Shown here in pieces: positions 2,514-63,983 of a stretch of 64,000 bases of DNA (positions are counted from its first letter, which is position 1; each line of letters opens with the position of its first letter). Source of the DNA: Ulota crispa (lineage: Eukaryota; Streptophyta; Bryopsida; Orthotrichales; Orthotrichaceae). The notes beneath the pieces are model-generated. The model saw only the letters and a list, made by a program, of their open reading frames with translations, did not search any database and was not told where the DNA came from. A program made the translations under genes and the position numbers. The stretch covers positions 25,276,358 to 25,340,357 of the forward strand of contig OY987244.1 of NCBI GenBank assembly GCA_963920765.1, read 5' to 3'.

Positions 2514-2914
2514 TTCAAAAACATTGAGGCCCCTTAGAAGTAGGTTTTAAGTATTAGCTATAAGTGTAATTTTTTTGTGAGAATAACGTATTTAAAACAC
2601 ATATTACATGACATGCAACTTACATAAATTTGGAGAGTTAAAGAAGAATGCTCAAACTTTTAAGTTTGAGTTTTAAAGGTACCTTAAGATATAATTATAT
2701 GTATTTTCAAAATGCGTGAAGTGTTTCAGAAGACCCTCAAATACCCAATCAAATCGTAATTCGTCGTAACCAAGTAGCACACATGCACTTAAAAAGTTGA
2801 GGTTTTTAAAAATAAATCCATAAATACACATTAATCATTATTGATTCTTGGCAAATTGATGTATAAAATGTGTTAAGAAGCTTGATGCGAACCAATGGTT
2901 AATTGCTTTAGCTA
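2514..2914. other. Intergenic DNA, no gene seen
   Basis: AT-rich, without a convincing coding frame or a recognised repeat end. Confidence 0.5.
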
Positions 2915-2977
2915 ACTTGCACCCTTGTATCCTTCTAGACCATTGTCCCTTTCGGGGATAAATGGGATTTCGGGCAT

Positions 2978-3882
2978 GTCCAGTACCCTCTAGAAAGTCT
3001 TGCAACCCCTTTTGAGAAGCTCTTCAAATTCTTTTTTTTATTTTCATTGTAAAAGTATTTTGTCAAAACTATCCTATTAAATGTATTGCTTTATAGCACC
3101 TTTACCAACATACAAAATGTTAATGTCTAAAAATAAAAACTCTATTTTTGGTGAATTAATTAATTTTACTTTATTTTATTGGCTTTACATAAAAATTAAA
3201 TGAAAATTATATGTGATGATTTTTTAACATTTGATTGCACAAATATATAGGAAATGTCATTGTTCACATCTTTTGTATTACAAAAATGCACACTATGTAG
3301 GTAAAATTTTCCTTTATGTGGCTATAAAGTTTAAAATTTGCCCAAATTTGTTTTCCATTTTTCTTTCAAAAAAAAGCTAAGGAAATCAAACTAATGTTAT
3401 AGTAGGCTTCTACATTATTATAGCTTTCTAATGACACCTTATTTCACTATGTTTGTTCAAGTTTTAGCCTACGATAATATGAGTTTGATTTCCATAGCCT
3501 CAAATCTGTATGAAAGAAAATTAGAAAACATGTTATAGCCACATAGAGGAAAATTTTACCTACATAGTGTGCATTTTTGTAATTCAAAAGATGTGAACAA
3601 TGATATTTCCTGTATATTTGTGCAATCAAATGTTAAAAAATCATCACATATAGTTTTTAATTAATTTTTATGTGAAGCCAAGAAAATAAAATTAATTAAT
3701 TCACCAAAAATAGAGTTTTTATTTTTAAAAATTGACATTTCATATATTGACAAAGGTTCTATAAAGCAATACATTTAATACAATAGTTTGGATAAAATAC
3801 TTTTACAATGAGGATAAACAAAAGAAATTTGAATAGCTTCATAGAAGGGTTGCAAGACTTTCTAGAGGTATTGTACCTATGG
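2978..3882. repeat. Solo palindromic foldback unit nested in a TTAA element
   Basis: The left arm starts TACCCTCTAGAAAGTC and the right arm ends with its complement GACTTTCTAGAGGTA followed by TTGTAC; the arms then pair for roughly 350 bases around a spacer near 3340-3430. Internal blocks (TATTTTTGGTGAATT, TTTGATTGCACAAATAT) are shared with the 27.7-33.1 kb array, so it belongs to that family. It interrupts a TTAA-type element: flanking DNA (GGGCATGT on the left, ATGGCTAAACTACTTTG on the right) is contiguous in the uninterrupted copy near 54220-54245. It is therefore a later insertion at a GTAC-containing site. Confidence 0.75.
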
Positions 3883-7180: not shown

Positions 7181-8290
7181 TTAGAATGCTCCTTGCACTC
7201 TTCGTCCATCCTTGCCTTTCAGCAAGAAAATACCACTAGGCAAGACATTCTTCACGCAAAGAATAGTACGCCTTGCTTTGATATCTAATGTAGTAGGCGC
7301 CTCGTGCTGCAAATACATATAATCTCCTTGAGAAAATCTTTGCAGCTGAGGTTGATAAATGCCGCTACGAATGCGCGCATAATGCAAATAATCTCAATGT
7401 TGGGCTATGAGCAAGCTCTCCAAAGCCATAGGCATGGCTTTCTTGAAAAACTTAGCTTGATGATGTAGGTATTAAGCCTAAATATCTAGACTATCCAAGT
7501 CCACGACTAAAACCAGCTTCTCTTACACGGAGCTAGGCAAAATAGGCTTCCGTCTATAGAGCAACTGGTAAGGGTTATAAGAGGCCAATGAAGCCTGCCT
7601 ACTAAAACGGTAACTCATGGCAATCCATAGTAACATCAAGTTCCAATCTCAATGGTTTCCACAAAGCAATCCATACTTGCGTAAACCACGTTTGACTATT
7701 TGAACAACACGTTCAACCAAACTATCCGCCTCAGGGTGATCTTTAGAGGTGATGCGGTGATTAATCAAAGTTTTGGTGCATAAAGTCTCAAAAGCTCCTA
7801 AAAACTCTCGGCCTTGATCTGTCAAGATTTCAGCCGATGCTCCAAAGCGTGCCAATACGCAGTTAAGAAATGCCATAGTTGCCAACTCTGAAGAGTTTTG
7901 AGGCAAAGCAACTAGCTCAATTCATTTGCTGAAATGCTCTACTATTACCAATATGTATTTGGCTCCACGTGGGGTGACAACAAGCGGTTTGGCAAACACC
8001 AAAGACCAACGATAACCTAAACCCATGATTGGTAAAGGCCTCAACTGTGGCAATAAGGTGTTAAAACTTGATCTCACTCGATCACACACCTCACTCCAAA
8101 AAACATAGGTGGAAACTTGCTGATACATGTCAGTCCACCAATACTGATTGCGCAACATATCATGTGTCATGCGCGCTCCAAAATGACTAAGCTCCTTATG
8201 CACTTGCCGTATCAAAGAAACTCTCTGGTTTAACCTAGGAACTATGTGCCTAGCTCTATCTGGCCAAACACGAATTAATAAACCGTAATT
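7181..8290 (-). pseudogene. Integrase remnant
   Basis: The N-terminal zinc-binding region (HKELSHFGARMTH then EVCDRV; the first Cys of the CxxC pair is Ser here) is followed by the DDE core with ILTDQGREFLGAFE (~7795-7830) and the final Glu in LVERVVQIVKRGLRKYG (~7690-7725). The C-terminal part (7181-7387) shows GDYMYLQ and LPSGIFLLKGKDGRRV, like the GPY/F-type region before the C-terminal reader module. Stops lie at 7918-7921 and elsewhere. Confidence 0.88.
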
Positions 8291-8559
8291 CCAACGGAAC
8301 CTTATTATTCAATGATAAACTCTGTCTTGCTCCATGGTAGAAATATCCAAAGGAAATGATCCATGCTAAAGTTTATGCAAAACCACTAAGTCTTCCCACA
8401 CATCTTCAATACTTTGAGATTTACTAGGCTCATTATCCAAACCTAGATCAGCCGCCTCAGTAGTAGAGCTTGACATCAAATTCAAATAAGCAACTGCATG
8501 CCAGCTTGAAACTGCCTCTCTGTCGCAATTCTCATGTCATCTAGCACCAGTCAAATCCT

Positions 8560-25890: not shown

Positions 25891-27650
25891 GATTGTAGAC
25901 GCCAAGAAATAGTCTCTTAATCCCTTCTACGTAAACATCACAAGCCTGCATAATATTATCAAGGAGCACTCAAAGATTAGTCAAAATTTACTCGCATGAT
26001 ATCTTACATGGTCCTCAAAAGCAATCGATTGATTCTGATTGTTATAATGACACAGATCTACAAGAATACTAAACAAAACCAGAATCCAAGGTCCAAATCA
26101 TCCAAGAGCTTGCTAAGCCTAACCGCAAGTTGCATCAACGCAACCTTGAACTGAAGTAGATCCAGCTCTCGAAGCCAAGAACAAATCCACACTCACCAGG
26201 TTCCAGACAGAGCTTGAAACAAAGAAATACTCTTAACCTAGAGAATTCATCGCAACATGTAAACGATACCCAAATCTTCTGCAGCCCGATTCCCTAATAA
26301 CATAATACCGTTCCAAAACCACCTCCAGTATTTGCAGAGAGAAAGGAATTTTTTTAAGGAAATAAAGCCAAAAGATAAGACCTGTCCACAACCCTAATCT
26401 GTCCACTGAAACAATAACCAAGTGCAAAGCATACATGCCGTATAATTCCTTATCTACGTCGCCCGGTAACCTCGGACACTGCACCAGTAGAGAGGTAAAC
26501 TACTCGACCCGAGAAAGGTAACCAAAGCAACTGATAGGTGAGAAAAAACGAAAATTGCTTACTCTTAAAAGCATCTCAACTTCAACGAGACATAAAAAAC
26601 CAAACGAGGACGACAACCTTTAGTAATGTAGAGGAGCAACTGCTAATCTCTTAATTTTTCATTTGGTAAAATCCAAATCGAAAGAATTAGGCGGTTAGGC
26701 ATTAGAAATTTGCCGAACAAATTAACACGTACTCCTTAACAACTGAACATCCTAACAACTTCTCTAATCAAACACGCTCCTGCACTTCAAAAGTTACACC
26801 TAAGTTCAAACACGTCCGGCACTACACTTCCAAAATTGAACTGGTCACCTGATTTCCTCACAGTCCCGAAAATTCAAACATCCGAATATTCAGACTTCCA
26901 ATGACACTTTCACATTTCGTCCCAAATTTCAACAGAAACAACTCATTTTCTGAAGAAAACCTAAACGTCTCACTCGCCCTAACAGTCTCAGTATTCAATA
27001 ATTGTATGAAATTCAAGGAAACTTTCTTTAAATTCAAACAGATCCGGCACTAGTTAAAAACAGGCTGGTCACGTCAAAGTCCACAAAAATAACAGAATTC
27101 CAAGTTTATAAAGAATTTCAATGACACTTTCACATTTCGTCCCAAATTTCAACAGGAACACTTCATTTCTGAAGAAACCTAAACGTCTCACTCGCCCTAA
27201 CAGTCTCAGTATTCAATGCTTGTATGAAATTCAAGAAAATTTCTTAAATTCAAACAGAAGTCCGGCACTAAGTTAGTTAAAACGGGCTGGTCACGTCAAA
27301 GTCCAGAAAAATAACAGAATTCCAAGTTTTTAAAATTCACATACATCCAGCTGCCAGACTCTGCAATCCAGAAAGAAGGAGAAGACCAAAACAATATACC
27401 TGATAGCAAGGCCGAATTAGAGCCGTAATAAGCGTGGCCAGACTGCAGCTCCAATTATGTTACCGCAGCGGGGAAAGAGAAAATGGCATAGCGGAATTCC
27501 GATCCGAAGGCGAGACGACCAATTAAGGTACAATGGACGCCAGTTGCGGGAGGGCAATTTGAAGCAGCGAGCGAGGGAGCCAGATGTTGATACAAAAGGT
27601 TCGTTACGAAGAGTCTTATGGCCATGCTGGAAACCCTGGTGATCTCAATC
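25891..27650 (-). promoter_or_regulatory. 5' untranslated exons, leader intron and promoter of the F-box/LRR gene
   Basis: A probable noncoding exon ends at 27400 with a donor GCTATCAG|GTATATTG, and an acceptor ATTATGCAG|GC at 25946-25945 joins to the leader before the ATG at 25890. The leader intron is therefore about 1.45 kb. The transcription start is probably near 27600-27650, in the only moderately GC-rich stretch of this region. No TATA box was identified with confidence. Confidence 0.5.
26900..27330. repeat. Tandem duplication in the F-box gene leader intron
   Basis: Two consecutive copies of a ~215-base unit: both contain CAATGACACTTTCACATTTC, CCTAAACGTCTCACTCGCCC and GGCTGGTCACGTCAAAGTCC. 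The first runs about 26900-27117, the second about 27118-27330. The copies differ by scattered substitutions and small indels, so the duplication is not very recent. Confidence 0.85.
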
Positions 27651-27740
27651 TCTTCATCGTCGTTTAATCAGCCCCTGGACATACCCTAGCCGACCTGCAG
27701 TACAGCAGGGTTCATACAGGTCCTCAATCGAGAATTGGAA

Positions 27741-28625
27741 CTGTACAGTACCAGGCAAGCATTAATTGTCCGGTGCCTTGCTGCAGTTCGAAGATCTTCC
27801 CATAATATATTGCAAAATTGAGATTTTGTTATTTTGAATTATAGAGATTAATTTTTATGCAATCCCAACCAAGCATATTAAATTTTGATTCCAAAAAATC
27901 AAAACCTTATTTTTGGTGAAATATTTTGTATTAAATTCATGATTTTACATGAAAATTGATTGAAGAAAATTGGTGATGAATTTTTGTAGATTTGATTGCA
28001 TGAATATGTTGGAAACATCCATACGCACATTTTCCCTTCTAAAAAGAACCCCCTTAAGTAACAAAATTATGATTCACAAAAAGTTCAATGTGGGTTGTGG
28101 TAAAACCAAAATTTGTAAAGTGGATATTTCTATTTTTTAACTGGAATTTTGGCTAAGTAAACATATTGTCATGTTCAAAGGTACAAATTTAGTCATAGTA
28201 TATGACTCAAATAACATAAATTAATTATCAAAAAGAAATATCTATTTCACAAATTTTGGTCTTACCACACCTCACATTGAACTCTTTGTCAATCATAATT
28301 TTGTTACTTAAGGGAGTTCTTTTTAAAAGGGAAAATGTGTGTATGGATGTTTCCAACATATCCAATCAATCAAATCTACAAAAATTCATCACCAATTTTC
28401 TTCAATCAATTTTCATGTAAAATCATGAATTTAATACAAAATAATTCACCAAAAATAGGGTTTTGATTTTTTGGAATCAAAATTTGGTATGCTTGGTTGG
28501 GATTGCATAAGAATCAATCTCTATGATTCAAAATAACAAAATCTCAATTTTGCTATGTATTATGGGAAGATTTTTGAATTGCAGCAAAGCACCGAACAAT
28601 TCATGCTTGCCTAGCACTGTACAGT
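27741..28625. repeat. Array unit 1
   Basis: Left arm begins ACCAGGCAAGCATTAATTGT, right arm ends ACAATTCATGCTTGCCTAGC; pairing runs inward to about 28140/28230. Arms look above 90 percent identical by eye. Confidence 0.88.
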
Positions 28626-29498
28626 ACCCCTTAGTATGTTTACATTCACGCTCGTTTTGCTGTTCAAAAAACTTTGCACAAACCAGAGTATAATTTCATT
28701 TTCTTGCCTTGTATCAAGGTTTTGTAATTTGCATGCAGTTCCAATAAAGTATACCAAATTTTAGTTCCAAAAAGTCAAAACTCTATTTTTGGTAAATTGT
28801 TTTGTACTAAAATTCATGGTTTGTATGAAAATTGATTGAAGAAAATTGGTGATACATTTTTGAGATTTGATTGCATAGATATGTAGGAAACATCCATACG
28901 CACATCTCCCATGCTAAAGAAATCCCCCTTGAGTAACAAAAATTTGGTCTACAAAAGATTCGCTGAAACTTGTGATAGGCCCAAATTTTGTAAAATATAT
29001 ATTTCTAAATCTTAACTAGCTTTTCATCAAGTAAAACATACGTATTGTTTAGAGATACAAACCTAATTACAATATTTAAGTCAAACAACATAATTTGATT
29101 TTCATAAAGTGATATATATTTTACAAAATTTGGGCCTATCACAAGTTTTAGTGAATCTTTTGTAGACCAAATTTTTAATATTCAAGGGGAATTTCTTTAG
29201 CATGGGAGATGTGCGTATGGATGTTTCCTACATATCTATGCAATCAAATCTCAAAAATTTATCACCAATTTTCTTCAATCAATTTTCATACAAACCATGA
29301 ATTTTAGTACAAAACAATTTACCAAAAATAGAGTTTTGACTTTTTGGAACTAAAATTTGGTATACTTTATTGGAATTGCATGCAAATTACAAAACCTTGA
29401 TACAAGGCAAGAAAATGAAATTATACTCTAGTTTATGCAAAGTTTTTTGAACGGCAAAATGATCTTGAATGTAAACATACTAAGGGGTACTGTACAAT
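28616..29498. repeat. Array unit 2
   Basis: Left arm begins ACCCCTTAGTATGTTTACAT and the right arm ends ATGTAAACATACTAAGGGGT. Arms pair almost throughout, including the CTTGTATCAAGG-type block. Confidence 0.88.
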
Positions 29499-30365
29499 AC
29501 CCTAAAGAAAGTATACGTAAGTCCATTTTCCAGCATTCAAAGAAGTTGGAATAACATAAAATTTAATTGGCATTTTGTTTTCATATTTTTTTCATAAAAT
29601 CCTTGTTCCATTCCAATCAAGTATACCAAATTTCAGCTTCTAATAACCAAAATCCTATTTTTGGTGAATTATTTTGATTAAAATTCATGGTTTTAAGTGA
29701 TAATTGATTTAAAAACATTGGTGATGAATTTTTGAGGTTTGATTGCACAAATATGTAAGAAACATCCATACATACATCTTTTATTTTAACCAAATCATCA
29801 AAAAGTTTCAAAATTCCTTCTATAGAGGTTTTTACGATAGGGTGATCATGCCCAAATTTAGTAAAATAGATATATATTTTAATTAGCTTTTGGCAAAGTA
29901 AATATATCATCATGCTCAAAAATAAAAACTTAATCACAATATACAAGTCAAACAATAAAACCTTGTTACCATAAAGAAATATTTATTTTACTAAATTTGG
30001 GCATCATTACCATACCATAAAAACCTCTATAGAAGGAATTTTGAAACTTTTTGATGATTTTGGTTAATAAAAAAGATGTGTGTATGGATGTTTCCTACAT
30101 GTCCATGCAATAAAATTTCAAAAATTCATCACTAATGTTTTTTAATCAATTATCAAGTAAAACCATGAATTTTAATCAAAATAATTCATTAAAAATAGGA
30201 TTTTGGTTATTAGGAGCTAAAATTTGGTATGCTTGATTGGGATGGCACCAGGATCATATACAAAAAATATGAGGATAAAATGCCAATTATACTTTATGTT
30301 ACACCAACCTCTTTGAATGTTGGAAAATAGACTTACATATACTTTCTTTAGAGTATTGTATAGTA
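29487..30365. repeat. Array unit 3
   Basis: Left arm begins ACCCTAAAGAAAGTATACGT, right arm ends ACATATACTTTCTTTAGAGT. Arms pair around a spacer near 29870-29960. Confidence 0.88.
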
Positions 30366-31300
30366 TCCTTGAATAAAGTTTATCACCCTCTATTTTTTTA
30401 GCTACAAGTCATGTTATGTTTTGAAATTGAGGTCAATTGGGCTTTTCCAATCTTGCATTTTTATATCTCATTCTTTTCCTTAATGCCAACCAAGCATACC
30501 AAAATTCAACCTCAAAATACTAAAATCCAAATTTTGACAAATTGCTTTGCGTCACAAATCAAGATTTTACATGGATTTACAAGAAAATTGATTGAAAAAT
30601 ATTGATAATAAATTTTGGAGGTTTGATTGCATGGGTGTATAGGTAACATCCATACGCACATCCATATGCACATCTTTCATGCTAAAAAAAACCCCTTAAG
30701 TAAAAAGAAATTGATCTTCATAAGGTTTAGTGTGACATATGATATGTCCAAATCTTGTAAAATATATATTTTTAATTTTTATTTAGCTTTTCACCAAATA
30801 AACACAAAAATATGTTCAAAGTTACAAACTTAGTCATAGTTATGAGTAAAATAGCAAAATTTGATTATTAGAAGAAAATATATATTTTACAAGATTTGGA
30901 CATATCAAATGTCACACTAAACCTTATGAAGATCAATTTCTTTTTACTTAAGGGGTTTTTTTTAGCATGAAAGATGTGCATATGGATGTGCGTATGGATG
31001 TTACCTATACACCCATGCAATCAAACCTCCAAAATTTATTATTAGTGTTTTTCAATCAATTTTTTTGTAAAACCATGTAAAATCTTGATTTGTGACGCAA
31101 AGCAATTTGTCAAAATTTGGATTTTAGTATTTTGAGGTTGAATTTTGGTATGCTTGGTTGGCATTGGGGGCAAGAATGAGATATAAAAAATGCAAGATCA
31201 AAAAAAATGAATTGACCTCAATTTCAAAACATAATATGACATGCCCTGTAATTGAGAAAAAATAGAGGGCAACAAACTTTACTCAAGGCCATTATACAAT
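30353..31300. repeat. Array unit 4
   Basis: Left arm begins ATCCTTGAATAAAGTTTATC and right arm ends with its complement CAAACTTTACTCAAGG. Longest unit; arms also share TTTGTGACGCAAAGCAATTT. A duplicated CATACGCACATCCATATGCA block is present in both arms. Confidence 0.87.
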
Positions 31301-31480
31301 AACCATGGGTTTTACAATATAATTAATTGAAAAAAATTGGTGATGAATTTTTGAGATTTGGTTGCATGGAAAATGTGCACATGGATGTTTCCTACATATC
31401 CATACAGATCAAATCTCAAAAATTCATCACCAATTTTTTTCAATCAATTCTTTTGAAAAACCCATGGTTATTGTACAATA
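31291..31480. repeat. Array unit 5 (short palindrome)
   Basis: A 190-base palindrome containing only the core: ACAATAACCATGGGTTTTAC on the left and AAAAACCCATGGTTATTGTA on the right. It is followed by a single arm fragment (about 31481-31600) with the TTGGGATGCTTAATTGGGAT block. Confidence 0.8.
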
Positions 31481-31663
31481 AAATTTACCAAAAATTGGGG
31501 TTTGATTTTTTGAAGTCAATTTTTGGGATGCTTAATTGGGATTGCTAGCTATAATCAAATATAAATAATGCAAAATAATAAAACACCGATTACATTCTCT
31601 AAATTGCTAAATTTCAGCACTATTAAAACCACCAAAAGGGGGGCAACAACAATTTTGGTCTAA

Positions 31664-32222
31664 GTACTGTACTGTACTATAAAGAAAGAGTACATAAGTC
31701 CCTCTTTTGGGATTCAAAGGAGTTTGTGCAATGAATAATATAATGGGCATTTTATTCTCACATTTTTGGTATGTCATCCTCATGCAATCTTGGTCAAACA
31801 AAACAAATTTTGGTTACTAGAAATCAAAATCCTATTTTTGGTAAATAATTTTGTGTCAAAACCATGATTTTACAAGAAAGTTGATTAAAAAACAGTGGTG
31901 ATGAATTTTTGAGATTTGATTGCATGGATATGTAAGAGACATCCATACGCACATCTTTCTTTCAAGCAAATATTTCCAAAAGCTTTCAAAATTCCTTCTA
32001 TAGAGATTTTAATGTTAGGGTGATCATGACCAAATTTAGTAAAATACATATTTCTTCATGAAAAATACTTTTGTTATTTGGCTCATACATTGTGATTAAG
32101 TTTGTACCTTCAAACATGATGATATATTTATTTTGCCAAAAACTAATTTATTTTTTGTACAAACTTCTTTGAATACCATAAGAGGGACTTATGTACTCTT
32201 TCTTTAGGGTACTGTACAGTGC
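31664..32222. repeat. Array unit 6 (one arm shortened, spacer reversed)
   Basis: Ends are inverted copies (GAAAGAGTACATAAGTCCCT and AGGGACTTATGTACTCTTTC). The left arm is complete, the right arm has lost most of its inner part. The spacer (CATTGTGATTAAGTTTGTAC near 32090) is the reverse complement of the spacer orientation in units 1-4. Confidence 0.8.
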
Positions 32223-32775
32223 CCTCCAACTAGTCCTCATACACCCTAATTTCCCATTCTGAAAACTTTGCTACTACAAAATATCATTGACTTTTTGTTT
32301 TGTGAATCATAGAAGTTTGATTCTTATGCAATTCCAATCAAGCATATCAAATTTTGATTTTTGAAAACAAAAACCCCATTTTTGATGAATTATTTTGTAT
32401 TAAATTCATGAGTGTATATGATAATTGGTTGAAAAATATTGGTAATGAATTTTTGAGACTTGATTGCATGGACATGTAAGAAGCATCCAAAGGCACCTCT
32501 TCTATGCTAAAAAGAATCCCCTTAAGTAACAAGATTTTGATTTACAAAGATTTCAGGGTGACTTGTGCTATGCCCAAACTATGTAAAATAGATATTCCTG
32601 TACAATAATTAGATTTTACTACTTGATTTGTACATTGTGACTAAGTTTGTACCTTTGAACATGTTGTTATGTTTACTTGGTGAAAAAGTTAATTAAATTA
32701 TTTTAGCAAAAAAAATTGAATGGCAAGAGAAGGTGTTTGAGGACTTGTTGGAGGGCATTGTATAGTCCTTGGAAA
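32212..32775. repeat. Array unit 7 (one arm shortened, spacer reversed)
   Basis: Ends are inverted copies (GCCCTCCAACTAGTCCTC, GAGGACTTGTTGGAGGGC). As in unit 6, the right arm is mostly deleted and the spacer block CATTGTGACTAAGTTTGTAC is reversed relative to units 1-4. Confidence 0.8.
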
Positions 32776-33110
32776 GAAGTCTAAGTTTTCTCTTCTTTTC
32801 ATTCAATCAACTTGCATAATATAGAACATAATTGGAATTCTTTGTCTTGCATCATTGACATGCAATTTTGATTAAGCATACCAAATTTTGATTTCAAATC
32901 AAAACCCCATTTTTGGTGAATTATTTCCCATAATATTTATGGTTTTACATGATAACCAATTTTTTTAAAAAGGTGATGAATTTTTGAGATTTAATTGCAT
33001 GGGCATGCAAGTAACATTCATGTATACATCTTTTGTGTTACAAAAAATTCCATCAAGCTCTCACAATTCTAAAAAAAGTATGACAATGGTGTTCATGAAT
33101 CAATCACCTT
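32756..33110. repeat. Array unit 8 (single arm)
   Basis: Begins TCCTTGGAAAGAAGTCTAAG after the junction ATTGTATAG and contains the core blocks, but no complementary second arm is found before the DNA changes character near 33110. Confidence 0.7.
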
Positions 33111-39310: not shown

Positions 39311-39625
39311 TCAATAATGAGAAGCTAGCAGCATGCACAAATATGGTACTTTTTGTATGGAATTTAGGTGCCCAAATGGCAACATCCAAGCTAGAGATTT
39401 TGCATACATTTGATAGATGGTATATTGATTCTAGAATGCATGTGTCACTAGTACAAAGACTAAAATAATGAGGAGCTAGCAGCATTCACAAACTATGCAC
39501 AAATGTGATACTTTTTGCATGGAATTTGGGTGCCTAAACAACTACATACAAACTGGAGATTTTGTATACAATTAAAAGATGGTAGATTGATCCTAGAATG
39601 CATGTGCCACTAGCTCAAAGACTAA
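39311..39625. repeat. Tandem duplication of ~157 bases
   Basis: Two adjacent copies sharing AATGAG(A/G)AGCTAGCAGCAT, GATTTTG.ATACA, AGATGGTA.ATTGAT and TAGAATGCATGTG. Copy boundaries are about 39311-39467 and 39468-39625. Confidence 0.85.
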
Positions 39626-39637
39626 AAACACAATTAA

Positions 39638-56966: not shown

Positions 56967-57037
56967 TGCGGATAATGGGAATCAAACCCATATCTCCTGC
57001 TTGGAAGGCAAATAATTTACCTTTAATTTATATCCGC
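56967..57037 (-). tRNA. trnG-UCC: tRNA-Gly (UCC), mitochondrial origin
   Basis: A 71-base sequence on the minus strand with perfect acceptor stem GCGGATA/TATCCGC, anticodon loop CTTCCAA (anticodon UCC) on a 5-bp stem TTTGC/GCAGG, and T stem ATGGG/CCCAT. Cloverleaf intact apart from an AT-rich D arm. Confidence 0.88.
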
Positions 57038-57149
57038 CTAAAAATTTTATTTATTTCTTCTTGCTTTTTTTTTTCAATCTCCATTTACATAGCAAATTAA
57101 TATTAGGTTGATTATTGGTTCTTTTGAGCCGATGATCTTATTAAGATAA

Positions 57150-57233
57150 GGATAGATATCTAAGCGGTTGAAAGAATCGGTCTTGACAACCGAAGTATTG
57201 AGAATACCGAGGGTTCAAATCCCTCTCCATCCA
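57150..57233 (+). tRNA. trnS-UGA: tRNA-Ser (UGA), mitochondrial origin
   Basis: 84 bases with a long variable arm (AGTATTGAGAATACCGA region) typical of tRNA-Ser. Anticodon loop CTTGACA gives UGA; stem CGGT/ACCG. Acceptor GGATAGA pairs with TCCATCC except for one A-C mismatch, again a G-to-A change. Confidence 0.88.
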
Positions 57234-58166
57234 TAAGTAGGGTAATTACTAAACCCTTTTTAAAACAAAATAGCATGTAACCTTTACAAATCTTAACATT
57301 GTGTAATTATTTTGCACAATCAAGCAAAAAATAAGATATTCTCTTTATGAAAAAATATATATAATCATTATTTATGATGATTCATTCAAGAAAAAGTAAT
57401 GATCTTGAACTGGTGGCTCTGTGCTTGGTAGCCAGAAAATAGGGCAGTACCCTGAAGAGCTTGAGGAGATTTTTACTCAGTTGGACAGCGCGTATCTTGC
57501 TGTGGCTTAGCTCAAGGCGCAACATTGAGCCATGTTGCAAAATGCGCCACAGTGCACTGGACCAAAATATATAGATGTCATAATCTGTATAATATTGGGT
57601 AAATCAAAAATTTGCATGTTTTTGTACATCACGCGCTTAACCACAATCTAACAAAGGCGACAATAAAAAATAACATAATAAAATTGCCAGTATACCAATC
57701 AAATGACATACAAGATAAACTACCGGCACTAGTGGTTGATTGCGCGAAAGCAAAGACCCGCTTTGCCCTTTTTCTTTTCACGTAGTCAAAAAGATACGAT
57801 GCTTAGATAGTACACTTGCAAACGCAAAAAACAATATGACTTATGGATCATTAATAAGCAAATCTAGTTTAGTTTCTTTTTATAGTGACAAACCATGAGA
57901 AATAACTTTATCTATAGGCATAACTCAGAAACCATAAAACACAACCTAACCTACAGGGTTAGGCCAAATATGATGGTGTAAGTTCAATTCTAGTTTGACG
58001 AGAGGGCCTTTGACCCATTCATGTGACTGTGAGTAATTGATCAATAATAAAAAGTCTGGCAATCCATGGGCCCTTGAGCTACCATTTGAAATGGTATTGA
58101 GGCCATTAAGAGAGTCTAATAACTAAAGAAAAGAAAAGAAAATTCCACAGATTAAATCAAATTTTG
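57234..58166. other. Mitochondrial spacer
   Basis: No gene recognised. A tRNA-5'-half-like string (TACTCAGTTGGACAGCGC near 57474) has no matching 3' half. Confidence 0.45.
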
Positions 58167-58251
58167 GCGGATATGATGGAATTGGTAGACATGCCAAGTT
58201 TAGGTTATGGTGACTATAATATTTGTGGGGGTTTGAGTCCCTCTATCCGTA
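58167..58251 (+). tRNA. trnL-UAG: tRNA-Leu (UAG), mitochondrial origin, degraded
   Basis: 85 bases with GCGGATA acceptor, class II long variable arm and T arm GGGGGTTTGAGTCCCTC. Anticodon loop TTTAGGT gives UAG. The acceptor has one G-T pair and the anticodon stem CCAAG/TATGG has a mismatch, so it is probably non-functional. Confidence 0.8.
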
Positions 58252-59494
58252 CAAGTTGAAACTTCAAATTCTGTGATCACCAGGCCTTTAGCGTTTGGCT
58301 AGCCTATTATATAATTACTATTTCTTAGTTAATACTGCTTCTTGAGATAGTATGCCACCAGCTATAGTAAATTGTCGAGCTGCACCCGACATATTCAACT
58401 AATGGAAGTTGATTAACAAAGCAACCACAAATTTACGTGCAAATCAACCAAATAGAAATGAAGAATAAAGATGCCCAATCCACAGTAAGCGTCAAGTATG
58501 ACAATATTCTGAAGTGACGACAATAAAATAACATAATGAGTCCATGATTTTCCTAGGTAATATAAGCTTAAAGCTAACCCTAAACTCTGCCCTTATTGCA
58601 AAACATAAGGCTATGACAAGAATTTCCAGAAACTTATCTTTCTTTAAATTATGATTATTCCCAGTAGAAGTTACGAGGCTCCAGAAACAACTATTTGTTT
58701 AGCATTATTATTTCCTAAATATATCATTGTGATCTATTTGATAATAGTATGACATGCATTTTCTAGTCCTAACCTATTTGTGCGGAAGGGACCACAGTGA
58801 TTGCACTATCCTTTAATCACTGCAGTTATTTTTGTGTATCTAACGCCTAAAAACAGGCTTAGTAATTTGAGTGGTTAGGTTTAAGACCCATACCAAGATT
58901 AAGTGTAATCAGATTGCTTGATCTATAGATATAAATCCCTATGATGTTTTGAAGTTTTTTATTAAAGATTTATGGCTGCCGCCCTCACCTAAATTCATAC
59001 AACATTTGACAAAAAAAAGGTATAACTACTATTAGGAAATTTAGTATTCTATCATAAATTTGTAAATCAATGGATCTTTCACCTTGCATAGTATTTGTAC
59101 TCTTGCCCCGTGGATCAAACACCAATTGTGATCAAATTGTTTTTGGAAATTAGGAGAGAAGCCATGCTGCTTAATTGGCAAAAAAAGAATATACGTTTAT
59201 TCATAAGAAAATTGCTCAATTCATAAATCAGATTCTAAACTGTGCTCTATTTATTTATTATGTATGCATAAGAAAACAGCTCAGGCTTAAAGTTATAGGC
59301 CCTTCATTCACAATATAGATGAATAGTTTGATTATCAAAAAATATTGTATATTGTAAAAGAACCTAAGCAAATTAACTGCCCCTACATTGTTCTGGTATG
59401 AGCCATTGGCAGAGTGGGAAGTTATTTTGTTTTTGTTTTAGGCGGGTGCGTAGCACTTTACAAGCTTCAAAAAAAAGGCAGTAGGTAGATTTTT
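58252..59494. other. Mitochondrial spacer
   Basis: No gene recognised. A short minus-strand frame starting at ATG near 58385 (MSGAARQFTIAGG) is not assigned. Confidence 0.45.
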
Positions 59495-59566
59495 TGGAGT
59501 ATAGCCAAGTGGAAAGGCTTCGGTTTTTGATACCGACAGGCAAAGGTTTGAATCCTTTTACTCCAG
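59495..59566 (+). tRNA. trnQ-UUG: tRNA-Gln (UUG), mitochondrial origin
   Basis: 72 bases, acceptor TGGAGTA/TACTCCA with discriminator G, anticodon stem TCGGT/ACCGA, loop TTTTGAT (anticodon UUG), T arm AAAGGTTTGAATCCTTT. Intact cloverleaf. Confidence 0.9.
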
Positions 59567-59583
59567 ATTTATGTAATTTTTGA

Positions 59584-61919: not shown

Positions 61920-63983
61920 TCAAAAAAATGATTCATTGGCAGGGCCGAAGGCTTCTCTTCTTTGGCCTTTGGCAAAGGCTTTGCGCCCCTGGTACGCTAC
62001 CTCTGTAGCCATAGCTCTTGGAAGGCGCAGAGCCTTTGCATAACAAATGACAGAAAAGCCAAAGGTTTCACCATGTAGATTCGAAATGTTGCTAGCTTTT
62101 TCTCTCTTTGGCCCAAAAAAAGAACTTTTTTTCTTTATGTATTTTATTTGCTTTGTATCCAATTAGTTTGTCATGGCCTTCTTTATCCTCCATCAGCTTT
62201 GATAAACAAGTAAATTGACGCAAGTGCATGAATAGAGTACTTTGCCGCAAATACCATAAGATCCGGTTTACGGGTTTTGGGGCTCTTAGGCTTTGATTCA
62301 ATGATAAATCAAAGAATGCACCAACTAGCCTAGTACTTGATTGCTGCTTCATTTGGAAAAAAACATCAAAGATATGCTAGTAATGTTGAGGAAGAAAAAC
62401 CATAAAAAGATTCCTTGTATAGAATCTGTAGCAAAACTACAAACAGAAGTTAGCAATCCAGAACGTACAAAAAAAGTTCCTAAAACACAACATAGAAAAG
62501 TGACCATATTAAGAAACAAAGTCCAATAATTCAATTTAGGGAAAATTACTGAATGAATACAAGCTGTAGCTAATAGCCAAGGCATAAAAGAAGCATTTTC
62601 TACAGGATCCCAAAACCACCAACCCCCCCACCCTAATTCATGATAAGCCCACCAATTTCCTAGCAATATGTCTACAGTTAAAAAACACTAGCATGTCAAG
62701 ATCCAAATTTGAATTTGTTTCCACCCGTGGTATTGTGGGCCAGAGACCACTTTATTCGCGCTACGGGTCCAACCAAAATACAAAAACACAATATTTGCTT
62801 TATGAACAACACGCTTAGTCCACTGGCTCTTTGTAAGATTCAGCCACTCTTTTGACCAAAGCAAAGAAGGCGACACCAAGTGCCCAAGCCCAAGCAGGCT
62901 TCTATTGCATAGCAAGATGAAAGCAAAACTGGGATAAAGAGAACAAGTATTTTCAAATAGATTTTTTCTAATTTTCTTTGCATTCTCCTGAGTAATCAAA
63001 TTATTTGTTATGCGAAAGAAAGCATCAAAAATTTTGGCCTTGCTTTCCCTTTGCACTGGCAAATAGAGTGCAGAGATACCATTCATTATTTTGGCTAGAC
63101 ATAAGCAAAAACCAATAGCACTGGTGACATATCTTGCATAAATGCAGGGAGGATGTATAGCTAATATAGGATCTTGTAAAACAAGATTTAATTCTGCAAG
63201 TGATTTAGTACAAACAAATGAAATTCAAACAAAAGGATTGGAACTTGCTAATAAGAAAATAAAAATAAATAAAGGAATGCCCATATAAATTTGCCGTTCA
63301 TCAATAAAGGAAACTTTATTATTTGCATTTTGTGCCAAAAAGAAAAAATCTAAATTGTTATATAAAGCGTAAAGCAAAAAAACAAAATCTAGATTTTTTT
63401 TTTTCAACTCTTTCCCTTTTTTAAGCCTTATGGGCCTTTTATTTTCTTCTGCATTTACACCATCTTTTAACCTTTTATCTGAGAGCTCTTGAACAATACC
63501 TAAGGGCGCCGCTTTGGATTGGCTCTTGAGGGAGCTTTTATGATTTATGGTGCCAAACAAGTTTTGCAACAAATGATGTCTGAATTGTTTATTTTCTTTT
63601 TTTATGAAGGAAGCGGAGCAAAAAGCCACAAGCAATCTACAAAAAAAAGAGATTTTTTTGCCCCCTCGTTTTGAAACATTGCAAGGTTGAACCCGATGAC
63701 CCAAAAAAAATCCATAGAAACTTAGGATCCAACACCATAATAACAAATTGCCCTCATGATTAGATCATATTCCTGATATTTTATAAAATTAAGGCGCATT
63801 AGCATTTGAGTTGGTAAATACATTGTAATTGAAAAAATTAGAAGAAATATAGCAAGACAAAACACCAAAAAAAGAAATAGTAAAGAGAAAAAAATAAAAT
63901 GAAATAGCCGCAGGTCTTTTGTTGTAAGTTAATGCGACAAAAATACTCAGTACTAAAAAATAATGGCCCAATTCATTATACAT
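61920..63983 (-). pseudogene. ccmFN: ccmFN, mitochondrial origin, interrupted
   Basis: From [20 protein letters not shown] at 63983 to the stop at 61920-61922, about 687 codon positions. The heme-handling WWD region is complete ([18 protein letters not shown], near 62590-62640), followed by [20 protein letters not shown]. Lesions: TAA after SNANAP, TGA for Trp in SGI-x-SNHEG, TGA after SSNPFV (CGA position), TAG for Trp after IWILTC, and a frameshift near 62110 in the HKEKK segment. The encoded protein would be the N-terminal partner of CcmFC in cytochrome c heme ligation. Confidence 0.9.

Follow-up and report, generated by a model that had tools for sequence, protein, structure and literature searches.

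Tc1-like transposons have been described in a moss, namely PpTc1 and PpTc2 of Physcomitrella, which are 1.6-1.7 kb long, have 33-bp inverted ends and duplicate a TA (PMC4054914), and a survey of 207 plant genomes, including four bryophytes, reported lower copy numbers of Tc1/mariner miniature inverted-repeat transposable elements (MITEs) in lower plants (PMC12550479). Several kinds of adjacent transposon copies are also on record. The Bari1 cluster of Drosophila holds about 80 copies of one element and is ascribed to error-prone, rolling-circle-like transposition (PMC8834629); coral CMITEs, which are piggyBac-type elements of about 100 bp using TTAA, form arrays of units that closely resemble one another, explained by slippage (PMC2872659); tandem palindromic hAT-type MITEs, with arms of 167-169-bp repeats, occur at inversion breakpoints in cod and have been linked to the inversions (PMC12368964); and McGurk and Barbash described double insertion of Drosophila transposons at their own target duplication (reviewed in PMC12628747). 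Here we analyse a 64,000-nucleotide stretch of the moss Ulota crispa (the window; C3:25276358-25340357, in a 275-Mb genome of 157 contigs), in which eight units, four of them full-length palindromes, follow directly upon one another. With considerable confidence, we consider this array to be a stack of Tc1/mariner-type MITEs inserted serially at a self-renewing target, the hexamer TGTACA.

The system seen here resembles PpTc1 and PpTc2 in its CAGT...ACTG ends, TA duplication, Tc1-like DD34E transposase and moss host, but palindromic MITEs, a TGTACA target and stacking are not described in the excerpt of that report (PMC4054914). As in double insertion, copies are adjacent since insertion duplicates the target; here, however, the duplication is of TA only, the element itself supplies the CA and TG tips that complete the hexamer, and the stack is built of mixed subfamilies (PMC12628747). 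The Bari1 cluster likewise has Tc1-type elements arranged head to tail, whereas our array consists of eight units of different subfamilies (PMC8834629). Coral CMITEs share with it a conserved interior contrasting with ends that differ between families, as well as tandem arrays of full MITEs (PMC2872659). The cod MITEs share long inverted arms, tandem order and loss of the transposase, but are of hAT type, have repeat-built arms and are tied to inversions (PMC12368964). Serial insertion at a target duplication is already known; what is new is this family, its self-renewing hexamer and the matching of its arms. A literature search aimed at moss palindromic elements found none, which does not prove that nothing has been published.

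Self-comparison of the window, together with reading of the sequence, resolved eight abutting units (u1-u8) between 27746 and about 33110, with one TA per joint; the chain of palindromes covered 27737-31301 and was followed by weaker units up to about 33110. A TA was present at all seven joints and at the left border, and unit limits were set by cutting the sequence at the joint TAs. A first-pass annotation, made from the sequence alone, had reported a run of directly adjoining palindromes over 5.4 kb and had proposed looking for repeated anti-diagonals in a self-comparison; the chain was indeed seen there, and the palindromes adjoin one another at the place reported. Its further statement that most of about eight units are near-perfect palindromes is true of u1-u4, which are full-length palindromes, and fails for u5-u8, so that it applies to four of eight.

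In window positions (no strand assigned), the left outer border TA (27744..27745) reads GAACTG-TA-CAGTAC and precedes u1 (27746..28619), a palindromic element of 874 bp with 88% identity to its own reverse complement. A single common TA (28620..28621, CACTG-TA-CAGTAC) joins it to u2 (28622..29492; 871 bp, 90%), another (29493..29494, TACTG-TA-CAATAC) joins u2 to u3 (29495..30358; 864 bp, 83%), and a third (30359..30360, TATTG-TA-TAGTAT) joins u3 to u4 (30361..31294; 934 bp, 87%), the two tips of which are unlike each other. Ungapped arm identities of u1-u4 were 91%, 96%, 86% and 97%, respectively, and the spacing from u1 to u3 was regular, at 872-876 bp. Beyond the joint at 31295..31296 (CATTA-TA-CAATAA) lies u5 (31297..31669), a degenerate unit of 373 bp in which a 177-bp palindrome is confined to the left side. 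The next joint (31670..31671, TACTG-TA-CTGTAC) leads to u6 (31672..32214; 543 bp), with 65-bp inverted ends and a single core arm; a single common TA (32215..32216, TACTG-TA-CAGTGC) connects this to u7 (32217..32760; 544 bp), with inverted ends of about 80 bp (74%) and, again, a single core arm; and the last joint (32761..32762, CATTG-TA-TAGTCC) precedes u8 (32763..33110), a truncated unit of about 348 bp with one arm only and an approximate right end. The joint motif GTACTGTACAGTAC, allowing up to three mismatches, had 10 matches in the window, seven of them in the array, versus 1.28 expected from shuffles. At this threshold it fitted the left border and every joint (27738, 28614, 29487, 30353, 31664 and 32209) other than u4/u5 and u7/u8, both of which had more than three mismatches.

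The predicted RNA fold of u2 had a free energy of -609 kcal/mol versus -161 (sd 8) for 20 shuffles, consistent with the earlier suggestion that transcripts would form very long hairpins. The sole stop-to-stop frame of at least 120 aa in the array, 121 aa long, was in u3, and an Rfam search of the array gave no match. In the array, Tandem Repeats Finder reported no repeats apart from two runs of 29 bp with a period of 12. Beyond these runs its arms lack short tandem repeats, unlike those of Foldback (FB) elements, which are composed of them.

Element ends were read in 64 copies fetched from the genome; 7 belonged to the u1 group, 28 to u2 and 29 to u4, and four loci that are the window itself were excluded. 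In total, 124 ends were placed, with both ends placed in 60 copies; 117 of the 124 had CA or TA at positions 1-2, as in Tc1-like tips of the form CAGT...ACTG, and the counts below refer to these 117, selected by that filter. Position 3 was G or A in 114 ends and position 4 was T in 113, while the flank outside the element read TG-TA, with T in 107 ends at -4, G in 106 at -3, and then T in 116 and A in 115. The TA was duplicated in 56 of the 60 copies, whereas duplications of 3-9 bp were found in none or one of the 60, and flank symmetry, at 57, 57, 49 and 47 of 60 for positions 1-4, was 11-22 beyond them. The duplication is exactly TA, inside the palindromic target TGTACA. A target duplication extending beyond the hexamer was rejected, since flank matches at k = 1-8 were near shuffled values (21 vs 14.2 at k = 1, 4 vs 5.1 at k = 2 and 2 vs 0.9 at k = 3). 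Duplication of all six bases is disfavoured because the empty site of the copy at locus L003 already carries that copy's AG-TA-CA variant, of which the opposite tip contains no mirror image. A piggyBac-type assignment, as for the coral CMITEs, was also discarded, the flanks showing TA and not a TTAA duplication.

For an empty-site test, the flanks of the 60 copies were joined without the element and sought uninterrupted in the window and 68 loci. Spanning non-family matches were found for five copies, four of which fitted the empty-site pattern. The best was the L003 site in L060, where 303 bp matched at 88% identity; since L060 carries AGTACA in one piece, the L003 element entered at the TA. 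The empty sites for L005 and L060 also fitted, reading TGTACC and TGCACA, respectively, and of the seven relatives of the L068 site one read TGTACA, two read TGCACA and the remaining four had other hexamers. ZB reportedly prefers ATATATAT, closely resembling Sleeping Beauty and Bari (PMC7913693), and TGTACA is therefore a different preference. A literature search for TGTACA as a transposon insertion target returned only unrelated work, which does not prove that nothing has been published. The TGTACA preference may be common to several Tc1-like families of this genome.

Their TA duplication, tips, lack of a transposase of their own and high copy number identify the elements as non-autonomous Tc1/mariner-type MITEs of different subfamilies. 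The elements start with CA(G/A)T and end with A(C/T)TG, and we propose that each enters at the central TA of TG-TA-CA, duplicating TA alone. The product, TG-TA-[CA...TG]-TA-CA, would contain two copies of TGTACA in place of one, one per border, with the outer TG and CA coming from the target and the inner CA and TG from the element tips. Both borders would again be TGTACA, so that stacking would follow: a subsequent element, whichever subfamily it belonged to, could enter a border and abut its neighbour via one common TA. We infer that Tc1-like transposases move these elements, and likewise the order of the insertions.

Such stacking was not confined to the window. The joint motif GGTACTGTACAGTACC, allowing one mismatch, had 172 joint-like matches genome-wide versus 4 for the reversed control, with at least 21 exact places among the matches listed, on eight contigs. 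At 26 of the 124 sampled ends another family member began within 97 bp, and at nine ends the first family hit lay farther out. The search for further arrays that the first-pass annotation had recommended thus found abutting copies at other loci, and its description of such a run as unusual does not stand for this genome.

The genome was searched with five of the eight units (u1 in part, u2, u3, u4 and u7), and for each query 40 of 2,696-3,397 first-look candidates were scored; the counts are minimum values, and the copies represented are those with the highest scores. Each of the five had its own set of dispersed relatives in the 275-Mb genome, with identities of 88-93% for the u1 part, 79-88% for u3 and 78-83% for u7; the fetched copies comprised 28 of u2 at 84-88% and 29 of u4 at 88-91%. 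In addition, u6-like elements of 534-537 bp, with 81-87% identity, adjoin the copies at L014 (two), L022 and L052. The u7 subfamily includes one-armed elements of 542-554 bp (for example, C1:22984758-22985305) and two-armed elements of about 850-870 bp (C5:1871231-1872103, C3:12446523-12447389 and C6:18058007-18058857). Exact-tip sites numbered 1,603 genome-wide, versus 97 in the control. Because each searched unit has dispersed relatives and u6-like elements lie beside other copies, the data support separate arrival of the array units, which belong to several families whose members also occur alone elsewhere. Within the window, a solitary palindromic member of about 896 bp (2981..3876, no strand assigned), with tips CAGTACCCTCTAGAAAG and CAATACCTCTAGAAAG, belongs to a different subfamily, and its left TA has decayed. 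Three u7-type copies on one contig (C9:9404493-9405034, 9415146-9415687 and 9442669-9443210) had equal scores and the same neighbour hits and look like a local duplication; and the u4-family copies L044 and L053 resemble each other, in opposite orientation, in the flanks nearest the element on either side, which may reflect one event copied with its flanks.

The genome contained 134 DDE_3 matches at E <= 0.001, and two transposase-bearing Tc1-like elements have ends that match family tips, of two types. The first, of the u6/u3 type, is at C5:17425470-17428961 (L079 and L070), where a frame with DDE_3 and HTH_Tnp_Tc3_2 lies between inverted arms of 858 bp with 99.8% identity, TA included; its DDE_3 match is interrupted by an internal stop. 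This element has TA and the tips CAGTACCC/CAATACCC, and its arms start CAGTACCCAAAAGAAAGAGTACATAAC and CAATACCCAAAAGAAAGAGTACATAAC. Its first 26 bp were 96% (left) and 92% (right) identical to u6, the 96% match being to the right tip of u6, and 81-85% identical to u3, and its tip was identical at 29 of 29 positions to that of the member to the right of the L052 element. Its arms lack the core of u1-u8 and matched an 861-bp palindrome in L077 at 78% over 427 bp; because of this likeness, at least the L077 palindrome looks like a long-armed Tc1-like element minus its gene. The near-identity of the C5 arms suggests either that the copy arose very recently or that the matching of arms is highly effective. 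The second, of the CAGTGGCC type at its right end, is L073 (C8:15467200-15470300), a 1,342-bp element with ends agreeing in 19 of the first 30 bases. Its 314-residue frame, with HTH_Tnp_Tc3_2 and DDE_3, resembles Sleeping Beauty transposase (E 2.6e-20) and has 34 residues between the second D and E (by hand count on the alignment). The right terminus, CAGTGGCCTCCAACAA..., matched over 27 bp at 93% the end of the palindrome beside L052, which is 935 bp long with 410-bp arms at 96% and a u4-type core (83%), and over 14 bases it was one base off the start of u7 in the window, CAGTGCCCTCCAAC. The left terminus of L073 had no match among the family tips compared. TGTACAGTGGCCTCCAAC is present in L081, which lies at a distance of 1.2 kb from a different DDE_3 match, and two further Tc1-like elements, in L072 (1166-3238) and L075 (463-2006), also lie in TG-TA...TA-CA. 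A candidate transposase inside a family element at C1:7079870-7081900 was rejected, the L080 palindromic member occupying bases 27-910 and the DDE_3 match lying beside it.

Arms were more alike within copies than between them. In the core (positions 116-285), identity was 89-99% within u1-u4 and 73-89% between them, although the margin for u3 was narrow (89% within versus 87% to the nearest other unit), and the earlier view that arms match within units and differ between them was to this extent correct. In the outer arm (positions 9-98), identity within u1-u4 was 83-93%, and most cross-unit pairs gave no alignment longer than 60 columns; the outer arms had been described as different between units, which holds for these pairs but not for u3 and u6, which have an outer arm in common (73-80%), nor for a small number of further pairs, most of them involving u8 or u7 (71-78%). 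In the u2 family (27 copies including the window), mean arm identity was 0.946 within a copy and 0.900 between copies, and in the u4 family (29 copies) it was 0.942 and 0.900, respectively, with L023, L034 and L046 excluded since one end was unplaced. In midpoint-rooted FastTree trees, two arms of the same copy formed 14 of 23 cherries in the u2 family and 25 of 26 in the u4 family, versus shuffled means of 0.42 (u2) and 0.43 (u4) and maxima of 4 and 3, respectively. Substitutions private to a copy were present in both of its arms in 47 and 54 cases and in a single arm in 121 and 179. The arms of one copy thus evolve in concert and are repeatedly rewritten from each other, be it during transposition or afterwards in place. 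The outermost tips did not follow this pattern in the u4 family: ACCC-type and GGCC-type tips were unlike at the two ends in 24 of 29 copies, a total on which rule-based classification and tip reading agree although two copies were classed differently, while the arms behind them matched. The two-tip pattern is that of the u4-family copies L040-L068 and of u4 itself. Both of the alternatives put forward in the first-pass annotation receive support, homogenisation between arms from their pairing and separate insertion of members of different subfamilies from the dispersed relatives of each unit searched.

The palindromes would thus persist by repeated rewriting of one arm from the other, the outcome of which is observed, and hairpin repair, gap repair or fold-back synthesis may provide the enzymology. 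The palindromic members may descend from Tc1-like elements with long arms from which the intervening gene was lost, as the C5 element and L077 would suggest. More tentatively, and as a possibility that we consider well short of probable, the elements may renew their target and their shape alike: the tips would complete a new TGTACA at both borders, and one arm of the body would be copied from the other, possibly whenever the element transposes, via an intrastrand hairpin, so that one-armed forms with short terminal inverted repeats, or long-armed forms losing their gene, would become full palindromes, and each copy would start as a near-perfect hairpin with a private sequence. This idea is favoured by the within-copy pairing of arms with private substitutions in both, by the occurrence of one-armed and two-armed forms in the u7 subfamily along with the C5 arms of 858 bp at 99.8%, and by the 24 of 29 u4-family copies that keep unlike tips despite matched arms.

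Several observations weigh against serial insertion at a self-renewing hexamer, or against the arm matching and transposase source connected with it. The 172 joint-like matches are candidate joints, and many of those with one mismatch could be a tip beside a tip-like flank. Of the 24 abutting ends, no more than 15 show a clean neighbour tip directly after the TA, and the same short motif is present at 35 of the 93 ends that do not abut. Several diverged relatives of the L068 site are without the TGTACA hexamer, and L006 did not fit, its empty-site relatives showing a replaced stretch with no TGTACA-like hexamer. The C5 element is flanked by GT-TA and TA-TA, not TGTACA, and among the ten DDE_3 loci compared, of 134 matches, none had the outer arms of u1, u2 or u4. 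As to the arms, the partner was the nearest arm for only 25 of 54 in the u2 family and 36 of 58 in the u4 family, and some same-copy cherries were weakly supported, with 2 of 25 below 0.5. Finally, TGTACA occurs 129,034 times genome-wide (132,884 for the reversed control), and the tip-bearing share of these is about 1.2% (1,603/129,034), versus 24 of 117 usable ends that abut another member, an excess that is approximate, since tips that have mutated escape the pattern and well-preserved copies are over-represented in the sample. Hexamer density as the sole cause of stacking is therefore insufficient, and because abutting ends exceed the hexamer supply a further preference is likely, be it local hopping, a longer preferred target, chromatin or the sampling of well-kept copies. 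Non-abutting ends showed a mild T, A, A bias at -7 to -5 (45, 42 and 39 of 93).

Other origins of the array were weighed against these data. Tandem amplification of a single element, by rolling circle, slippage or unequal exchange as for the Bari1 cluster or the coral CMITEs, would agree with the regular spacing from u1 to u3, and head-to-tail arrays of whole elements are known (PMC8834629, PMC2872659). However, neighbouring units are not nearly identical but come from different subfamilies, with mostly unalignable outer arms, cores of 73-89% identity and several length classes, and u1-u4 and u7 each have dispersed relatives of their own; we regard this origin as very unlikely. Still less credible, to the point of being extremely unlikely, is an assembly artefact in which unrelated palindromic repeats were chained. 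Palindromes are difficult to assemble, but the joints keep one anatomy, with a TA at all seven and at the border and a motif fit at the border and five joints, the joint-like motifs elsewhere far exceed their control with exact ones on eight contigs, and the same abutting arrangement recurs at other loci.

A functional locus, in which the host would keep the array as a hairpin or small-RNA source silencing Tc1-like elements, might be expected from the extreme predicted hairpin and the many Tc1-like transposase matches in the genome, but the units are mutually diverged and those from u5 to u8 are incomplete or have short ends, much as a passive pile-up would look, and the array had no Rfam match, which makes such a role most improbable. 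Serial insertion of MITEs at a self-renewing target remains the reading that we prefer.

Elsewhere in the window, one protein had eight relatives, one of which, from the moss Ceratodon purpureus, is a hypothetical protein with 77% identity. Positions 56967-59567 and 62688-63224 contain tRNA genes (Gly, Ser, Leu and Gln) and a cytochrome c assembly fragment and are probably transferred organelle DNA, and 7922-8308 encodes an integrase zinc-binding domain fragment, a retrotransposon remnant. The segment 47269-47599 matches the L068 flank on both strands and is probably another palindromic element family. Two-copy tandem duplications were found at 26892-27334 (218 bp) and 39333-39627 (162 bp), the latter with relatives in L006, L032 and L045.

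The array provides a simple, testable rule for the clustering of dispersed mobile elements, namely that an element completing its own target with its tips seeds a stack wherever it is inserted. Work on the maintenance of palindromes and their arms has usually relied on a small number of examples from sex chromosomes or yeast, and the many palindromes of about 900 bp with mutually matched arms in this moss represent a natural test bed for the survival of long hairpins and the likeness of their arms. The stacks are also obvious places for seeking small-RNA production in mosses.

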